25,037 bases of DNA, from the IMG/VR virus record IMGVR_UViG_3300021961_000589, positions 1-25,037 of that record; one strand, given 5' to 3'. The position numbers were made by a program, and so were the translations under genes. Within the stretch, counting starts at the first letter, position 1; each line of letters opens with the position of its first letter. Positions 3,829 through 18,130 of this stretch are shown here, in pieces. The DNA is from a virus. Below the pieces are notes generated by a model. The model was not told the origin of the DNA. It searched no databases and was given only the letters and a program-made list of their open reading frames with translations.

Positions 3829-4707
3829 TTATTCTTCAGCCAATTTTGAGAAGTATGCTAGATCATCGTCCTCTTCACCAATTTCTACATCAACTGGTGC
3901 AGGCTTTTTAGGTGCAGCTTTTGCTTGCTCAACAGTTGTTTTTGGAACTGGCGGTGAACCATCAACACCAAGAACTTTGTCCATCTTAGCTTTAAGCTCA
4001 TCATAAGACTTGAAGTTTTCTGGCGCAAGAAACTCTCTTAGAGAATGCTCATATTTCCAGATTGATTCAAGCTTATCATCATCAAAATCACCAAGAACGG
4101 AAGGTGCTTCAAACTCTGACTTATCATAATTTTGATAACCTTCAACTTTACGAATTTTCAGTTTGAAGTTTGCACCTTTCCACATATCAAAAGGATTAAT
4201 AGCCTTTTCATCTTCAAATTGTGGATTCATCGACTCATTAATCTTGTCGAAGATTTTCTTTCCGTATTTGTACAGGAAGACTTTGCCTTCGTTTTCTGGA
4301 TTTTTTGGATCTTCCACAACGTAGATGTTAGAGATATAAGAGAGTCGGCGCTTTTGCTTACGAGCGATTTCTTTGTTTGCTTCAACACCAGAATTCCATA
4401 GTTGCGAATTGTATTCGGAAACAGGGTCTTTTTGCCCAATCGTGGTCAACGAGTTTTCGATATACCAACCACCGGGACCCTGAAACCCATGATTAAAGAT
4501 TTTAACCCAAGGAAGCCCGTCCTCACCATCAACTTCAGGCTGAGGTAAAAAACGAATAACAGCATAGCCATTACCTGCTTTATCTACTTCAGGTTTCCAA
4601 AATTTATCTTCTTTGGTTGTTTGCTCTGACGAACTAAGTTGTTCGATTGCTTTGGCGAGTTTCTCCAGATTACCGGAGCTTCGTTTGAGATTTGCGAATG
4701 ATGACAT
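3829..4707 (-). CDS. 32: gp32-type single-stranded DNA-binding protein
   Basis: 292 residues from the ATG at 4707, preceded by AAGGAA at 7 nt; the frame is open 19 codons further up but has no better start. Order: basic N-terminal cooperativity segment (MSSFANLKRSSG), OB-fold core with NGYAVIRFLP, FNHGFQGPGGWYIE, RKQKRRLSYISNIYVVEDP and NEGKVFLYKYGKKIFDKI, a P/A-rich linker, and an acidic tail (EIGEEDDDLAYFSKLAEE). The core blocks match T4 gp32 and, more closely, cyanophage gp32. There are no cysteines at all, so the zinc site of T4 gp32 is absent. It coats ssDNA and organises the phage replication, recombination and repair proteins. Upstream genes are nucleotidase, gp59 and gp33. Confidence 0.95.
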   Translation of the reverse strand: MSSFANLKRSSGNLEKLAKAIEQLSSSEQTTKEDKFWKPEVDKAGNGYAVIRFLPQPEVDGEDGLPWVKIFNHGFQGPGGWYIENSLTTIGQKDPVSEYNSQLWNSGVEANKEIARKQKRRLSYISNIYVVEDPKNPENEGKVFLYKYGKKIFDKINESMNPQFEDEKAINPFDMWKGANFKLKIRKVEGYQNYDKSEFEAPSVLGDFDDDKLESIWKYEHSLREFLAPENFKSYDELKAKMDKVLGVDGSPPVPKTTVEQAKAAPKKPAPVDVEIGEEDDDLAYFSKLAEE

Positions 4708-4772
4708 CGTATTTTCCTTTGTATAAACGTTGTGTGTTGTATTGCGATTTGTCCAAAACATCATGATATATG

Positions 4773-4781: not shown

Positions 4782-5278
4782 TTCAAATCAAGATACTTCT
4801 TCAGTGTTTCAACGGTAATATTGGCATCAGTGTGTAGAATACCAACACCTCCCGCTGCATTCCATTCTTCGATAACAATTGGTGTATCATCGATTAAGAT
4901 AGAATTGGGGGTTGCATACTGCTGCTTCAGATGTTTTCCTGGTACAAAGATTTTAGGCCAGTGAATATCAGCGACCTTAACCAGCCATTGCATTTTTTGT
5001 ACTGAAACTTGAACGTTGATCTCTGGTCGAGCAGTTGATGAGAGAATACATTTTTGAATCTCTAAAGATTCGAGAAATGGTACTAAAATATCAAACCCAG
5101 GCATTTTCTCTAGTGTTGCAAAGTGCCCTGCATCTACAATTTTCTGAAAGTTAGTACCGAAACCTTTCTCTGTACGATAATCTGATGGCAGTTTGCCTGT
5201 GACTTCTTTGAATCTTTTTTCAAAGTTTGCAATCACACCATCCATATCAACATAGATTTTAGTTATGCTGGTTGACAT
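4778..5278 (-). CDS. HAD-family 5'(3')-deoxyribonucleotidase
   Basis: 166 residues with all four HAD phosphatase motifs: I, DMDGV at 11-15 (Asp11 nucleophile, Asp13 acid/base); II, SST at 80-82; III, Lys115 region (GKHLK); IV, IDD at 129-131. Length and motif spacing fit the small mitochondrial/phage 5'(3')-deoxyribonucleotidase group (NT5C), which dephosphorylates deoxynucleoside monophosphates and so tunes dNTP pools. The ATG at 5278 has AAGGA upstream inside the end of gp59, and the two genes overlap by 16 nt, so they are cotranscribed. The gene sits between 59 and 32, where T4 has nothing equivalent. Confidence 0.85.
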   Translation of the reverse strand: MSTSITKIYVDMDGVIANFEKRFKEVTGKLPSDYRTEKGFGTNFQKIVDAGHFATLEKMPGFDILVPFLESLEIQKCILSSTARPEINVQVSVQKMQWLVKVADIHWPKIFVPGKHLKQQYATPNSILIDDTPIVIEEWNAAGGVGILHTDANITVETLKKYLDLN

Positions 5279-5868
5279 ATTTTTCCTTTAAGTATTTCTT
5301 TGAACTTAACTTTATCGTAGTTTAAAAATGGTTTATATTTTTCACATCGAGTTAAAAAGCCAGGGAAAACAATATCATCTGAAATTTTTCTTTTCCACAT
5401 TGGAAAGAAATTCAAGATATCATTTAATATAATGATTGTTTCAATTGATATTTTTCCCTGTAGATGTTCATTATACAGCAAAGGATATTGCCCGTCAACC
5501 ACCTTTAACATTTCTTCCGGTATTTCTACCAAATCAAACATACGATCTATATCTTGTTTAAAAACGTATGTTAAAGACTGTTGTGTTTTTAACCATTTCT
5601 TATAAAGTTGATCTGCATCATCTTGTAAGAGATCCCCCACCCAAGTAGCAGAATTGTATAAAAAATTGGCAACAAAAAATCCAATTAGTTCTTCTCTATT
5701 ATATTTTCTGGACAACTTATAGAAACTATATTTGTCCTTTCTATTCATAAATTGGTCTTTTGTTGTGTTTGTTTTACCATTGTATTTCACATAATCATAC
5801 TTACCAGTAAAGTGTAACTTTAAAGCATGATATGTTGTAAATGCTTCATAGCCACCAATTTCATTCAT
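5263..5868 (-). CDS. 59: gp59-like helicase loader
   Basis: 201 residues matching T4 gp59 in the most conserved N-terminal block: GKYDYVKYN (residues about 22-30), KDKYSFYKLSRKY, and the aromatic ATWVGD segment. In T4 this all-helical protein loads the gp41 replicative helicase onto gp32-coated forked DNA. The ATG overlaps the stop of gp33 (ATGA), and the 3' end overlaps the nucleotidase gene. The order 33-59-(nucleotidase)-32 repeats the T4 order, which strengthens the call despite low overall similarity. Confidence 0.88.
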   Translation of the reverse strand: MNEIGGYEAFTTYHALKLHFTGKYDYVKYNGKTNTTKDQFMNRKDKYSFYKLSRKYNREELIGFFVANFLYNSATWVGDLLQDDADQLYKKWLKTQQSLTYVFKQDIDRMFDLVEIPEEMLKVVDGQYPLLYNEHLQGKISIETIIILNDILNFFPMWKRKISDDIVFPGFLTRCEKYKPFLNYDKVKFKEILKGKICQPA

Positions 5869-6086
5869 ATCGGCAATTTGTTAACTTTCTTCATCATGTT
5901 GAGAGATTGTGCTTCGTCACCAATTTTAGATTTGATTGGTGCAGTCAAAAGAGAAGCCGCTAGTTCAACTTCAAAACCTGTGGCTTCGCAGTGATGAACA
6001 ACGGCTTCCATGTAACTGAGTTTCTTACTTTCAACTAGGTTCTGTATGAGTTCAGAAAACTTTCTTTGTTCTTCTTTTGTTGGCAT
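5865..6086 (-). CDS. 33: gp33-like late-transcription co-activator
   Basis: 73 residues from the ATG at 6086, which has GAGGA 5 nt upstream; the frame is open further up but that start is preferred. The sequence is helical (KKLSYMEAVVHHCEATGFEVELAASLL) and ends KLPI, as recalled for gp33 proteins of cyanophage-like myoviruses. gp33 bridges host RNA polymerase, the gp55 late sigma factor and the sliding clamp, and so activates late promoters. Its position next to 59 matches T4. Late-type NATAAATA boxes elsewhere in the window fit its presence. Confidence 0.75.
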   Translation of the reverse strand: MPTKEEQRKFSELIQNLVESKKLSYMEAVVHHCEATGFEVELAASLLTAPIKSKIGDEAQSLNMMKKVNKLPI

Positions 6087-6093
6087 ATAATCC

Positions 6094-6486
6094 TCATTTA
6101 AACAGTATGAGTGCCATGAATACGGCATTGACAATAAATCCGACACCAATCGTCAGAATGACTACAGTGTCTTTCAATATTGCTGCACGTAGAAAGAAAG
6201 TAACCAGAGCTGCCCACATAAAAAGTACCAAGTCAATTGGAGGCATCTTATCAGTAATCCCTGCCATGACAGCCAAGAATGTAGGAATCAAAGATGCAAG
6301 TAACAGAATCAGCCCTAGCCATCCAATAGATTCGGCTGTGCTTGGTTTAAGCTTGTGTTGCAAAAAGTTTCGAATTGAGTCCTTTAGATTGGAGAATTTC
6401 GTCAACCAATCAACCTTTGTAGAAGATGTGTTTTCCAATTTTGGCGACTCGCTGTTTTTTCCATCGGGGGTTGATGTAGTCTGCAT
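6094..6486 (-). CDS. Small three-span membrane protein (holin candidate)
   Basis: 130 residues from the ATG at 6486 (MQTTSTPDG); the frame is open further upstream into the hydrolase gene. A soluble N-terminal 50 residues with an amphipathic helix is followed by three hydrophobic spans: about 53-77 (IGWLGLILLLASLIPTFL), 82-103 and 107-128. It overlaps the downstream end of the SleB-type hydrolase by 77 nt and directly follows it in transcription. That pairing, with the three-span topology, suggests a holin or lysis accessory protein, but I recognise no family. No strong ribosome site is seen, so the exact start is uncertain. Confidence 0.6.
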   Translation of the reverse strand: MQTTSTPDGKNSESPKLENTSSTKVDWLTKFSNLKDSIRNFLQHKLKPSTAESIGWLGLILLLASLIPTFLAVMAGITDKMPPIDLVLFMWAALVTFFLRAAILKDTVVILTIGVGFIVNAVFMALILFK

Positions 6487-7512: not shown

Positions 7513-7746
7513 TTACCTTTCGCTGATAAACTTATTCAGTTCTTTAGCTTTTGCAATAATCGCAGTAGAATTGGGATATTCTGGGAATCCAGGGTGTTCT
7601 GGTGGTGTCTGCCCTGCCCTTTCGGCGGTCTGAACTTTGATAGTCCAATCACTCGAAATCTTTTCACGTTCACCAAAATAATCTTGTTCCAACATCTCTC
7701 TAGCCATTTTCAAAAGTTCAAGTCTCAAATGGTATGGATCACTCAT
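7513..7746 (-). CDS. Conserved phage protein of unknown function
   Basis: 77 residues, helical at both ends, with a central PPEHPGFPEYP segment. The N-terminus SDPYHLRLELLKMA is, from memory, shared by small proteins in many T4-like cyanophages. The ATG at 7746 has AAAGGAG nearby. It lies directly downstream of the tmRNA gene and upstream of the beta-barrel gene. No function is known to me. Confidence 0.75.
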   Translation of the reverse strand: MSDPYHLRLELLKMAREMLEQDYFGEREKISSDWTIKVQTAERAGQTPPEHPGFPEYPNSTAIIAKAKELNKFISER

Positions 7747-7783: not shown

Positions 7784-7815
7784 GTCAGTTGATTCTGTTG
7801 CCAAGTTCAACTGAC
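7784..7815 (-). terminator. Hairpin at the 3' end of the tmRNA coding piece
   Basis: A 9-bp perfect stem (GTCAGTTGA with TCAACTGAC) with a 14-nt loop, followed on the minus strand by ATTTT. It follows the tag frame and helix P5 of the tmRNA. It may be the transcription terminator of the tmRNA gene or the 3' terminal hairpin of the mature coding RNA. Confidence 0.7.
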
Positions 7816-7831
7816 AAAACTCCGTCCTAGT

Positions 7832-7882
7832 TTAAGCTGCTAGGGCAAAACGCTCATCATTGCTTGCGTTTACTTCGTTTGC
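7832..7882 (-). other. tmRNA proteolysis-tag reading frame
   Basis: Resume codon GCA at 7882, then 15 further codons and TAA, giving ANEVNASNDERFALAA. The ending (NDERFALAA) is the form used by betaproteobacterial tags; the ALAA end is what ClpXP-type proteases recognise. The stop lies inside the CCUAG/CUAGG helix, as in E. coli tmRNA. Confidence 0.9.
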
Positions 7883-7978
7883 TTCTTCGGCCGGGAAGTC
7901 CCAACCCTAACGGCTTTCACATTGCCGGATCGTCCATGTCTCTACTTATTGCCCTGTCGAAACCTGGTCAGGCCCATC

Positions 7979-8063
7979 AGAAGCATACTACCCACACTCA
8001 CTTACGATTAGCGTAACCAGCGGTAGTTAGAAATCTGCTCATGTATTTCTATAGTATGCTTCT
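7979..8063 (-). repeat. 12-bp inverted repeat bracketing the tmRNA intervening segment
   Basis: AGAAGCATACTA at 7979-7990 and its exact complement at 8052-8063 flank the removed segment, one arm abutting the CCA end and the other lying just 3 nt before the 5' end of the coding piece. In the precursor this would stack on the acceptor stem and present both cut sites, for RNase P at the coding 5' end and a 3' endonuclease after CCA. Confidence 0.8.
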
Positions 8064-8122
8064 GGTGGACCTGGGCGGAATCGAACCGCCGTCCAGAACA
8101 CCTTTCGATCTACTTCATACGA

Positions 8123-8419
8123 TCATAACTTTTTAGGTTCATATCCAATACTCAGTATACAAGAAATGTCACCACTTTTTGTAGTTTTAAATAGAGTATA
8201 TGAACCAGTGTCTTCATTTTTCCACAACGAAATTATTGAACCATTTTCTTCCGTTGCAATAAAAGACTGTCTCTCTTTATATTCCTCCATGACCTTCATC
8301 ACTTTAGAGGTTCTATCACATAGAACACTCAAAGGATATGTAAATGCTGTTGATGGAACATTTGTTTGCGACAATGCCATCATTGGAAGAAATATGGATG
8401 CCGCAACTAATGTTTTCAT
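8123..8419 (-). CDS. Small exported protein with signal peptide
   Basis: 98 residues from the ATG at 8419, chosen because AAGGA lies 6 nt upstream; the ATG at 8425 directly abuts the same site. N-terminal signal peptide (MKTLVAASIFLPMMALSQ). The mature part of about 80 residues has two cysteines (LCDR, SCIL) that could form a disulfide, and a beta-rich pattern (GSIISLWKNEDTGSYTLFKT). Similar small exported proteins occur in many marine phages (recalled); their function is unknown. A consensus sigma70-type promoter sits directly upstream. The stop codon touches the 5' end of the tmRNA acceptor piece, so both may share a transcript. Confidence 0.75.
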   Translation of the reverse strand: MKTLVAASIFLPMMALSQTNVPSTAFTYPLSVLCDRTSKVMKVMEEYKERQSFIATEENGSIISLWKNEDTGSYTLFKTTKSGDISCILSIGYEPKKL

Positions 8420-8432
8420 TTTCATTCCTTGT

Positions 8433-8460
8433 ATTATACATCATTTTAGAAATTTGTCAA
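8433..8460 (-). promoter_or_regulatory. Sigma70-type promoter (TTGACA-N16-TATAAT)
   Basis: -35 box TTGACA at 8460-8455, 16-nt spacer, -10 box TATAAT at 8438-8433, all on the minus strand in a 37-nt intergenic gap. It drives the small exported protein and probably the tmRNA. Confidence 0.85.
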
Positions 8461-9560: not shown

Positions 9561-9568
9561 TATTTATG
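9561..9568 (-). promoter_or_regulatory. Late-type promoter box CATAAATA
   Basis: Minus-strand CATAAATA differs from the T4 late consensus TATAAATA by its first base. It is placed 29 nt before the start of the coiled-coil gene and overlaps the stop of the adhesin gene. Confidence 0.55.
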
Positions 9569-10502
9569 AACCGTAACTTGCTGCGGCTAGATAGTATCTA
9601 AATGTTCCAACATTACTATTATCTGTTGCAACAACACCAGTGTTGGAAACTAAATTAGTATATGTATTATTTGGTATTGCAAGCCCAAATCCGAATATAG
9701 CTTTATCACCACCATATCCTGCTGCGGCTAATCCATATCTGGTAGTACCTACACCAGTCGTATCTGTTTGAACCACACCAGTATTAGAGACAAGATTAGT
9801 CATGGACACTGCTGTAGTAGTTCTTCCATATCCAAATATAGCTTTATCACCACCATATCCTGCTGCTGCCAATTCCTTTCTAGCAGTTCCAACACCTGTT
9901 GTGTCAGTTGCAACGACACCAGAATTAGAAACTAGATTGGTCATAGATAAATTACCAGAACCATTACTACCATATCCAAATATAGCTTTATCACCACCAT
10001 ATCCTGCTGCTGCCAAATCCATTCTAGCAGTACCAACACCAGTCGTATAAGCAGCAACAACACCAAGGTTGGAAACAAGATTTGTTAACGATGCATATGA
10101 AGCTCCCGTATATCCATATCCAAATATAGCTTTATCACCACCATATCCTGCTGCGGCTAACCCTGATCTTTCAATAGCATCAACAACACCAGAGGTGTCC
10201 GTAGCAACAACACCAAGGTTGGAAACAAGATTCGTAATTGATGTCCGACTTGAACTAGTGAACCCAAATCCAAATATGGCCCTATCACCACCATATCCTG
10301 CTGCGGCTAATGCATATCTGGTAGTACCTACTCCACTTATATCTGTTCCGAGAACTCCGGTAGACGAAACAATATTAGTCGTAGAATAAAGGGTAGCAGA
10401 ATTGAGACCATATCCAAAAATAGCTCTCTGTGAAACACGTGCAGATGTTCTCACTGTACCATCGTTAAATTGTAATCCTGAAGTAGTTAATGTTGTTGGC
10501 AT
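9564..10502 (-). CDS. Six-repeat propeller-like tail adhesin, paralogue 1
   Basis: 312 residues: an N-terminal anchor-like segment (SGLQFNDGTVRTSA, residues about 8-21, a form common at the start of phage tail-fibre proteins), then six repeats of about 46-50 residues. Each repeat reads [KR]AIFG[YF]G, a variable stretch of 4-10 residues, TNLVSNxGVV, D/TTGVGT, then LAAAGYGGD. The pattern suggests a beta-propeller with one blade per repeat, and the last repeat ends in AASYGS. The variable stretch lies at the same point in each blade, so those loops would form one face. Repeat 2 carries an insertion (VVDAIERSG). It is probably a receptor-binding or surface-adhesion protein; the family is recalled only as unnamed repeats in phage tails. 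Confidence 0.75.
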   Translation of the reverse strand: MPTTLTTSGLQFNDGTVRTSARVSQRAIFGYGLNSATLYSTTNIVSSTGVLGTDISGVGTTRYALAAAGYGGDRAIFGFGFTSSSRTSITNLVSNLGVVATDTSGVVDAIERSGLAAAGYGGDKAIFGYGYTGASYASLTNLVSNLGVVAAYTTGVGTARMDLAAAGYGGDKAIFGYGSNGSGNLSMTNLVSNSGVVATDTTGVGTARKELAAAGYGGDKAIFGYGRTTTAVSMTNLVSNTGVVQTDTTGVGTTRYGLAAAGYGGDKAIFGFGLAIPNNTYTNLVSNTGVVATDNSNVGTFRYYLAAASYGS

Positions 10503-10518
10503 TTAATGTTCTCTTTTT

Positions 10519-11445
10519 TTAACCACTAAAACTTGCTGCTGCTAATGATGATCTGATTGTACCAACACCTGTTCTATTTGTAGCAACGACTCCCAAATTT
10601 GAAACTAGGTTAGTCGTTGAAGTATAGCCAATTGATATATCTCCATATCCGAATATAGCTTTATCGCCACCATACCCTGCTGCGGCTAAACTATACCTTT
10701 CAACTCCTACTCCAGTGGTATCGGTTGCAACAACACCGGCATTGGAAACAAGATTAGTCATAGAAACACTTACCAGACCGGCGGCCAAACCATAACCAAA
10801 TATAGCTTTATCGCCACCATATCCTGCTGCGGCTAATAATCGTCTAGCTGTACCGACACCGGTGGTATCGGTTGAAACGACGCCTAGATTTGATACAAGA
10901 TTGGTTAATGAGGAAACTGAAGAACCAGTGTAACCATATCCAAATATAGCTTTATCGCCACCATATCCTGCTGCCGCCAAAGATTCTCTAGCTGTACCGA
11001 CACCGGTGGTATCGGTTGCAACAACACCAGCATTTGATACAAGGTTTGTCATAGAAACCTGAACAGACGTATATCCATATCCAAATATAGCTTTATCGCC
11101 ACCATATCCTGCTGCCGCCAAAAGTTCTCTAGCTGTACCGACACCGGTGGTATCGGTTGAAACGACGCCTAGATTTGATACAAGATTGGTTAATGAGGTA
11201 GTTTTACCATAACCAAATATAGCTTTATCACCACCATATCCTGCCGCCGCTAAATTTCTTCTAGCTGTACCGACACCCGTGGTATCAGTGGCAACATTTC
11301 CAAAATTACTAACAAGATTGGTCATAGACAAACTGCTGACGCTGAGTTGGCCATATCCAAATATTGCTCTAATTCCTGTGCGAGCAGTAGTTATTTCTGT
11401 TGTATCATTAAAAGCAAAGCTTGTATTTTTTAATATTGTGGGCAT
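10519..11445 (-). CDS. Six-repeat propeller-like tail adhesin, paralogue 2
   Basis: 308 residues with the same plan as its two neighbours: N-terminal MPTILKNTSFAFND, then six AIFGYG...TNLVSN...GVGTAR...LAAAGYGGD repeats, ending LAAASFSG. The inter-repeat loop after GYG varies from 4 residues (KTTS, repeat 2) to about 11 (LAAGLVSVS-, repeat 5). Its repeats are the most alike of the three proteins, and repeat DNA includes an exact 71-bp duplication, which indicates recent copying between repeats. Spacing to both neighbours is short, so the three form one late operon. Confidence 0.75.
   Translation of the reverse strand: MPTILKNTSFAFNDTTEITTARTGIRAIFGYGQLSVSSLSMTNLVSNFGNVATDTTGVGTARRNLAAAGYGGDKAIFGYGKTTSLTNLVSNLGVVSTDTTGVGTARELLAAAGYGGDKAIFGYGYTSVQVSMTNLVSNAGVVATDTTGVGTARESLAAAGYGGDKAIFGYGYTGSSVSSLTNLVSNLGVVSTDTTGVGTARRLLAAAGYGGDKAIFGYGLAAGLVSVSMTNLVSNAGVVATDTTGVGVERYSLAAAGYGGDKAIFGYGDISIGYTSTTNLVSNLGVVATNRTGVGTIRSSLAAASFSG
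10843..10913 (-). repeat. Exact 71-bp repeat, copy 1 (copy 2 at 11128-11198)
   Basis: Reads identically to 11128-11198, 285 bp away, which is two repeat units, and mismatches immediately on both sides. It covers the conserved half of a blade, from the codons after the TNL region to GVGTAR. Confidence 0.9.
11128..11198 (-). repeat. Exact 71-bp repeat, copy 2 (copy 1 at 10843-10913)
   Basis: Second copy of the internal duplication in adhesin paralogue 2. The flanking variable-loop codons differ between the copies. Confidence 0.9.
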
Positions 11446-11456
11446 TTTTTGTCTTT

Positions 11457-12392
11457 TTATGAAAAATAACTTGCTGCTGCAAGGTCTAAACGAACCGTAC
11501 CAACGCCAGTTGTATTTGTTGCAACAACACCAAGATTTGAAACCAAATTAGTGATAGCAGTTAATGTTCCATTAATACTTCCATAACCAAATATAGCTTT
11601 ATCGCCACCATATCCTGCTGCGGCTAGATAGGACCTAGAAGTGCCAACACCTGTAGTGTCCGTAGCAACAACTCCACTGTTTGACACTAAATTGGTCACA
11701 CTTAAACTGTTTGTTGCAAAAGTGAATCCATAACCAAATATAGCTTTATCGCCACCATATCCTGCTGCTGCAAGACCCCATCTGGCAGTTCCAACACCTG
11801 TAACATCAGTAGCAACAACACCTGCATTTGATACTAAATTTGTTAAATTATATTCTACGAATGAATTATTTCTTCCATAACCAAATATAGCTTTATCTCC
11901 ACCATATCCTGCTGCGGCCAAATAGTATCTGACTGTACCAACACCCGTAGTGTCTGTATTAACAACGCCGGTATTTGACACAAGATTCGTCACTGAAACG
12001 TCTGTTCCTGATCTACCATAACCAAATATAGCTTTATCTCCACCATATCCTGCTGCGGCCAAATATTGCCTAGCAGTTCCAACGCCTGTTGTATCTGTAG
12101 CAACGACTCCAAGATATGATACAAGATTGGTCATTGAAACTTGTGTTGAGGTGTATCCGTATCCAAATATAGCTTTGTCACCGCCGTAACCTGCTGCTGC
12201 TAAACGAGACCTAGCTGTTCCAACTCCTGTTACATCAGTGGAAACTTTTCCAAAGATATTAACAAGATTTGTAATTGATACATTGCCAAGACTATCACCA
12301 TAACCGAATATGGCCTTCACCTGGCTTTTCAATGAAGATTCAAAAGTTCCGTCGGAATATAAAATACCTGTCGTGTTTGACGTTGCGGGCAT
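11457..12392 (-). CDS. Six-repeat propeller-like tail adhesin, paralogue 3 (first in operon)
   Basis: 311 residues: N-terminal TTGILYSDGTFESS anchor-like motif, then six repeats in the pattern AIFGYG / variable loop / TNLVSN / GVGTAR / LAAAGYGGD, ending LAAASYFS. The first repeat is the most divergent (TNLVNIFGKVSTDVTG), as in paralogue 2 (SNFGNVATD), so first-blade sequence is conserved between paralogues. An AATAAATA late-type box stands about 30 nt upstream. It is probably displayed on the tail fibre or tail tip and binds the cell surface; which ligand is not visible. Confidence 0.75.
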   Translation of the reverse strand: MPATSNTTGILYSDGTFESSLKSQVKAIFGYGDSLGNVSITNLVNIFGKVSTDVTGVGTARSRLAAAGYGGDKAIFGYGYTSTQVSMTNLVSYLGVVATDTTGVGTARQYLAAAGYGGDKAIFGYGRSGTDVSVTNLVSNTGVVNTDTTGVGTVRYYLAAAGYGGDKAIFGYGRNNSFVEYNLTNLVSNAGVVATDVTGVGTARWGLAAAGYGGDKAIFGYGFTFATNSLSVTNLVSNSGVVATDTTGVGTSRSYLAAAGYGGDKAIFGYGSINGTLTAITNLVSNLGVVATNTTGVGTVRLDLAAASYFS

Positions 12393-17623: not shown

Positions 17624-17689
17624 ACTGTGGGTCGCCAGATTGCCGTCTGCACCCACTCTAACACTGAACAGAAAACAAGGAGTGCCAGC

Positions 17690-18130
17690 CTGACTATCTA
17701 TAACGACAATTCTTTAGTATTACCTTATGTTTACCGTTGTACCGAAAGAGAAACAGGTAGATTTTACATAGGTTATCGTTTTAAAAACAAGGTTCCAGCA
17801 AAGGACGATTTGGGCATTCACTATTTCACCTCAAATGAATATGTCAAAAACAATTTTGATAAATTTGACTTTGAAATCATAAAAGAATTTCCAGATAGAA
17901 AGAGTGCTTTTGAGTATGAAACGCAATTGATCAAAGAGACCAAATGCGAAAATCAGATAAATGCTAATAAACACAATAAAGCAAAACGCCCATATCAAAA
18001 AAAGCAAATTTATCTATATTGTATATACCCAGGTTGCGGAAAATACATCAATTCTTCAATCAAACGATTTTGTTGCAAAACTCATGCGGCATCTTATTCT
18101 GCGAAGAAAAGGTATAGTCAAAAAACATAA
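17690..18130 (+). CDS. GIY-YIG homing-type endonuclease with C-terminal zinc finger
   Basis: 146 residues if started at CTG 17690, which has AAGGAG at 7 nt. The GTG at 17627 is in frame but lies at the predicted transcript start, so it is unlikely. GIY-YIG motif: YVYRCTE then GRFYIGYR, with the helix block YFTSNEYVKNNFDKFDFEII and the catalytic-type Glu in AFEYETQLIKE. The C-terminus is basic and has CIYPGC and CCKTH, a likely zinc finger for DNA binding. It is a free-standing selfish nuclease of the T4 Seg type. It runs opposite to all neighbours, carries its own late promoter and overlaps the convergent 83-residue gene by 13 nt, all signs of insertion. Confidence 0.82.
   Translation: MTIYNDNSLVLPYVYRCTERETGRFYIGYRFKNKVPAKDDLGIHYFTSNEYVKNNFDKFDFEIIKEFPDRKSAFEYETQLIKETKCENQINANKHNKAKRPYQKKQIYLYCIYPGCGKYINSSIKRFCCKTHAASYSAKKRYSQKT

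Follow-up and report, generated by a model that had tools for sequence, protein, structure and literature searches.

The stretch of viral DNA analysed here (the window; 25,037 nt, IMG/VR record IMGVR_UViG_3300021961_000589) is a 25-kb piece of a T4-like myophage genome and carries, at 8124-7784 on the minus strand, a complete circularly permuted ssrA (tmRNA) gene with all parts intact. This gene is very probably functional: its precursor would be cut in two and would serve host-assisted trans-translation, which frees ribosomes. The phage two-piece tmRNA itself is known already; the unexpected part, for which no earlier report was found, is that the spacer between the two halves often carries a small protein gene in relatives, whereas the window's own spacer is a non-coding hairpin.

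The Rfam model tmRNA_permuted (RF04321) matched the window with 114.8 bits (E 4.6e-22) over the full model length, 1-213, well above its curated cut-off of 47 bits. The beta_tmRNA model (RF01850) scored 92.7 bits (E 3.7e-27), a narrow margin over its cut-off of 84 bits, and ARAGORN called a permuted tmRNA with the tag ASNDERFALAA. A sequence-only reading had proposed a permuted, two-piece tmRNA in a T4-like phage, in the order acceptor half, 87-nt segment, coding half, without naming the strand. It had suggested these same searches as a check and a missing covariance-model match as evidence to the contrary. Both models matched, and together with ARAGORN and the comparative data below they bear out that order and type.

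All parts lie on the minus strand. The acceptor half, the tRNA-like 3' part (8063..8124, from the RF04321 alignment and ARAGORN), begins with the helix strand GATCG (8124-8120), followed by the T-arm GGCGG UUCGAUU CCGCC (8090-8074), the acceptor 3' strand CAGGTCC (8073-8067) and ACCA (8066-8063), in which the encoded CCA occupies 8065-8063. The 87-nt intervening segment (7976..8062, ARAGORN) forms a non-coding hairpin with GAAGCATACTA/TAGTATGCTTC as its closing helix and ends in TGAT immediately before G1; no Shine-Dalgarno-led ORF was found in these 87 nt. The coding half (7784..7975, G1 at 7975) contains the mRNA-like part and the tRNA-like 5' part. It starts with the acceptor 5' strand GGGCCTG (7975-7969) and the D-like element GGUUUCGAC (ACCAGGTTTCGAC; 7968-7956), and continues with CGATC (7932-7928), the partner of GATCG in the acceptor half, and the tag reading frame ASNDERFALAA with its UAA stop (7832..7867, ARAGORN). 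The stop codon is flanked by the helix CCUAG (7844-7840)/CUAGG (7830-7826), and the half closes with the 3' hairpin GUCAGUUGA/UCAACUGAC (7815-7807/7792-7784). The two halves form an acceptor stem of 7 bp, GGGCCUG (7975-7969)/CAGGUCC (8073-8067), with G3.U70; the stem, T-arm and encoded CCA noticed in the letters alone are all present. The T-loop and the D-like element carry U55 and G18. The predicted fold of the precursor RNA had a z of -3.5 and was better than that of 100/100 dinucleotide shuffles. The 3' pseudoknot region aligned poorly to beta_tmRNA, with gaps and broken pairs in the last part of the model; a 9-bp hairpin exists there, at 7815-7784.

Upstream of the gene, a sigma70-type early promoter, TTGACA-16-TATAAT, lies at 8433..8460 (minus strand) and agrees with the consensus at 12/12 positions. 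Between the promoter and the tmRNA is a small ORF of 100 aa (8123..8425, minus strand) belonging to the function-unassigned family phrog_25396, and the next ORF downstream (7513..7746, minus strand, 77 aa) has no family match. The tmRNA therefore does lie between small ORFs, as had been described, but not strictly in the gap between them, since the acceptor half begins inside the stop codon of ORF 8425-8123. In the relatives, 32/34 tmRNA genes had a promoter with at least 10/12 matches in the 400 nt that precede them, versus 18% of 1119 other windows. The contig carries the T4-like genes gp32, gp59, gp33, PhoH, PDDEXK exonuclease and CobS-like. Two minus-strand genes served as synteny markers, those of the gp33-like late promoter transcription regulator (5865..6149, phrog_254) and the gp59-like helicase loader (5263..5868, phrog_269), and the gp32-like single-strand DNA-binding protein (3829..4764, minus strand, phrog_224) was the query for collecting relatives. 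Elsewhere on the window, three tandem paralogous proteins made of GYGGDKAIFGYG repeats (9564-12392, minus strand) are probably surface- or tail-associated, and a homing endonuclease-like ORF (17627-18130, plus strand, phrog_314) runs in the opposite direction to the genes around it.

Nucleotide search revealed no close relative of the window among isolate phages, and gp32 identity to isolates was at most about 61% among the matches listed. Through gp32, 80 IMG/VR loci were gathered, and 48 records were searched for tmRNA. A permuted tmRNA scored above the cut-off in 42/48, or 42/43 informative records, as in five of the six negatives the record breaks off no more than 2.4 kb upstream of gp32, before the locus is reached. 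The gene, located 2.3-4.6 kb upstream of gp32, is thus near-universal in the uncultivated phage group of the window. One near-identical strain (L093) shares 99.96% identity across 5.5 kb, gene included. The sole relative with the region present but without a tmRNA is L047, indicating that not every such phage needs the tmRNA. That the lineage keeps a rescue RNA almost without exception argues that trans-translation itself, and not just tRNA supply, limits the infections by these phages.

Whether the two halves evolve together was assessed on the loci collected with gp32, which were selected independently of tmRNA sequence. When the helices between the halves were paired with their own partner, the energy was -11.6 kcal/mol, compared with -10.0 kcal/mol for swapped partners, and 0/5000 permutations were as good, so each gene has helices of its own between the halves. 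Covariation extends to the elbow contact: with residues 18 and 55 assigned by eye from the sequences, 19 genes had U55 with G18 and 31 had G55 (in UGC or GGC loops) with A18, with no exception among 50. Examples of G55/A18 are the gp32-clade loci L005, L021, L031, L054 and L076, and also the phage Melnitz; pseudouridine 55 is impossible in these G55 loops. On the gp32 tree, 10 switches between U55/G18 and G55/A18 were needed, six of them independent and on well-supported branches. Several of the switches could be due to recombination of entire tmRNA genes, but this would not account for the absence of mixed pairs. Because of their UGC or GGC T-loops, most gp32-clade tmRNAs escaped a strict regular expression, and ARAGORN with model coordinates was used instead; as loci from the pattern scan are biased towards pairing and UUC/GG, the covariation is argued from the gp32-collected loci only. 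The naturally repeated swap from G18-U55 to A18-G55 is a directly testable point.

These data bear on whether the gene could be a nonfunctional relic of a host gene, which a temperate ancestor took up at an attachment site. tmRNA genes are indeed common integration sites (PMC11915505), but both halves, the CCA, the tag frame and the helices are intact, one locus has been kept across diverged phages with covariation, and no integrase was found in 19 long relatives (0/19). Nor was a host source gene found in 399 Burkholderiales genomes, where the best matches were short, covering about 30-45 nt of the T-arm or, in a few cases, the tag region; the phage gene has therefore not been copied recently from any host gene sampled. 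The intact parts, the conservation and the absence of integrase already largely refute the relic explanation, which we regard as barely credible. A permuted tmRNA above the cut-off was present in 5/120 Burkholderiales genomes scanned, and ARAGORN found one-piece genes in most of the others read. Four Herbaspirillum loci (L201-L204) have a permuted tmRNA whose tags end in AYGT (ANEPQFVAYGT), a sequence not known as a degron; in the L201 genome there is one more, weak tmRNA-like match that may be a standard gene.

For the favoured functional gene, the following course can be proposed. Transcription from the early promoter would give one precursor comprising the small ORF, acceptor half, spacer and coding half. 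By analogy with bacterial two-piece tmRNAs, host tRNA-processing nucleases would cut after the CCA and before G1, dropping the 87-nt hairpin, and the two RNAs would stay joined through the acceptor stem and the helices next to it. The RNA would be charged by host AlaRS through G3.U70, EF-Tu and host SmpB would use it in trans-translation, and stalled proteins would be tagged with ASNDERFALAA, presumably an ordinary ClpXP-type degron. Trans-translation with host SmpB and AlaRS is the most likely function. SmpB (PF01668) was found in 0/24 long tmRNA-bearing relatives, and host SmpB is assumed here; as the window is a 25-kb fragment, a phage SmpB may lie elsewhere in its genome. The benefit would most likely be that ribosomes are kept free during the burst of phage translation. 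The sequence-only reading had suggested that the RNA may make up for degraded host RNA or redirect tagging; the first motive is weakened by a report that host SsrA RNA stays stable during phage T4 infection (PMC9697503).

The phage RNA might instead compete with or modify the host system by taking SmpB and changing the tag, so that tagged proteins are spared or redirected. Inhibition of the endogenous tmRNA has been reported for a phage tmRNA without a tag (DS6A), according to a citation in PMC11915505. Unusual tag ends (LMVA, RIAA, RLAA, LAAA and LMAA) occur among the relatives L008, L014, L010, L024, L005, L084 and L141; they may change protease recognition in those phages and agree with such a role. 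But most relatives' tags, like the window's, end in ALAA, as do those of Burkholderiales hosts, and no redirection is expected from such a tag itself. We therefore consider competition unlikely for the window, and ordinary trans-translation remains the favoured reading.

The spacers of phage loci were then compared in a set of at least 277 distinct sequences, at least 111 of which are 130 nt or longer. In at least 64 of these 111 long spacers, among the matches listed, an ORF led by a Shine-Dalgarno site takes up at least 75% of the length; shuffles gave 0.14 and the reverse complement 0. A wider rule gave, among the matches listed, at least 65 contained ORFs and at least 8 running past the cut site (at least 73 of 111), versus about 0.3 in shuffles. 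Spacers shorter than 100 nt had almost no such ORFs among the matches listed. For 45/76 ORFs among the matches listed, the stop codon is completed 1 nt ahead of the predicted cut at G1. The encoded proteins form at least 40 families among the matches listed, one of which is DUF2061 (E 3.5e-20). The ORFs are under purifying selection, as pN/pS was 0.10-0.63 in 11/12 families with usable pairs (among the matches listed). All 12 spacer-ORF loci checked scored 91-147 bits as permuted tmRNA. It is near certain that the spacer ORFs in relatives are real genes.

Such loci include L016 (6998-7348), L013 (2491-2757), L067 (7501-7876), L390 (3150-3572), L440, L453, L399 and others, as well as Melnitz (L497, 45984-46436). 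The gp32 proteins of L065 and L067 are identical; one has a spacer of 62 nt without a gene and the other a spacer of 175 nt encoding 50 aa, indicating that gain or loss of spacer genes is local. When three spacer proteins were compared with isolate phages, one distant match and no others were found. One phage contig of about 300 kb (L428, 9451-9914, 6470-14384) has a GOLLD RNA and more than 30 tRNA genes near its spacer-gene tmRNA. A pattern scan for long spacers in 398 Pseudomonadota genomes gave four matches; two show terminator-like hairpins after the CCA in the excerpts, and these were read as probable ordinary one-piece genes.

The Shine-Dalgarno site of the spacer ORFs was predicted to be paired with a mean probability of 0.85, mostly with the ORF end. 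This site follows directly on the CCA, and the stop of the ORF falls within the UGAU that precedes the G1 cut, or past that cut. With each tmRNA made, precursor processing would then release a tiny mRNA, or truncate it to a non-stop message. We tentatively suggest that the discarded spacer became a site for interchangeable small protein genes whose expression is linked to ribosome rescue, although the coupling itself is speculative. For such a link, arfA offers a comparison. The window's copy would be the empty-spacer form of this family. Another explanation is that the tmRNA serves mainly as a cis-acting processing cassette that separates mRNAs of the early operon, trans-translation being secondary. 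The position of the tmRNA between small ORFs of one transcription unit and the small genes in relatives' spacers would fit this, but a cleavage site would not need a kept G3.U70 stem, tag frame and 18-55 contact, which makes a mainly cis-acting role very improbable. The spacer-nested small genes are directly testable, and the cultured phage Melnitz has one, which brings them within reach of the bench.

The window gene belongs to an already known class, the phage two-piece tmRNA. Standard one-piece tmRNAs of phages, e.g., those of Mycobacterium and Stenotrophomonas phages, are as far as known not permuted; they are phage-encoded too and match the window in short T-arm stretches only. Compared with the bacterial permuted tmRNAs of RF04321 and RF01850, the window gene has the same gene order, G3.U70, encoded CCA and AND-type tag, whereas it is phage-borne, its 11-residue tag has an extra Ser and its 3' pseudoknot region fits poorly. 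Its spacer is 87 nt long, whereas those of the permuted Burkholderiales genes examined measure 25-43 nt. Buchholz et al. (2022) counted 53 two-piece genes among 133 unique phage tmRNAs, including the ssrA of Melnitz (PMC9004378), and a database paper of 2025 lists 79 phage tmRNAs (PMC11915505). The sequence-only reading, which placed permuted tmRNAs in three bacterial lineages, thus overstated the novelty of its find, as phage two-piece tmRNAs had been described in 2022, that of T4-like Melnitz at the same locus among them (PMC9004378). For protein genes in tmRNA spacers, no published report was found in the open-licence literature; in the database paper, a tRNA and a repeat element are named as lying within spacers, with no mention of protein genes (PMC11915505).

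The closest parallel is Melnitz (MZ577097), a cultured Methylophilales phage, which is likewise a T4-like myophage with a permuted tmRNA at the same locus and in the same gene order: PhoH, PDDEXK nuclease, tmRNA, gp33, gp59 and SSB. Its permuted ssrA was described as lying downstream of an early promoter and as alphaproteobacterial-like (PMC9004378), whereas the window gene scores as beta-type. The tag is ANDNYVPVDYALAA in Melnitz and ASNDERFALAA in the window, and the elbow contact is G55 with A18 in the former and U55/G18 in the latter. In place of the hairpin spacer of the window, Melnitz has a spacer of 142 nt whose Shine-Dalgarno-led ORF (peptide MFKWLSKTRLVVITRDYF...) runs into the coding half.
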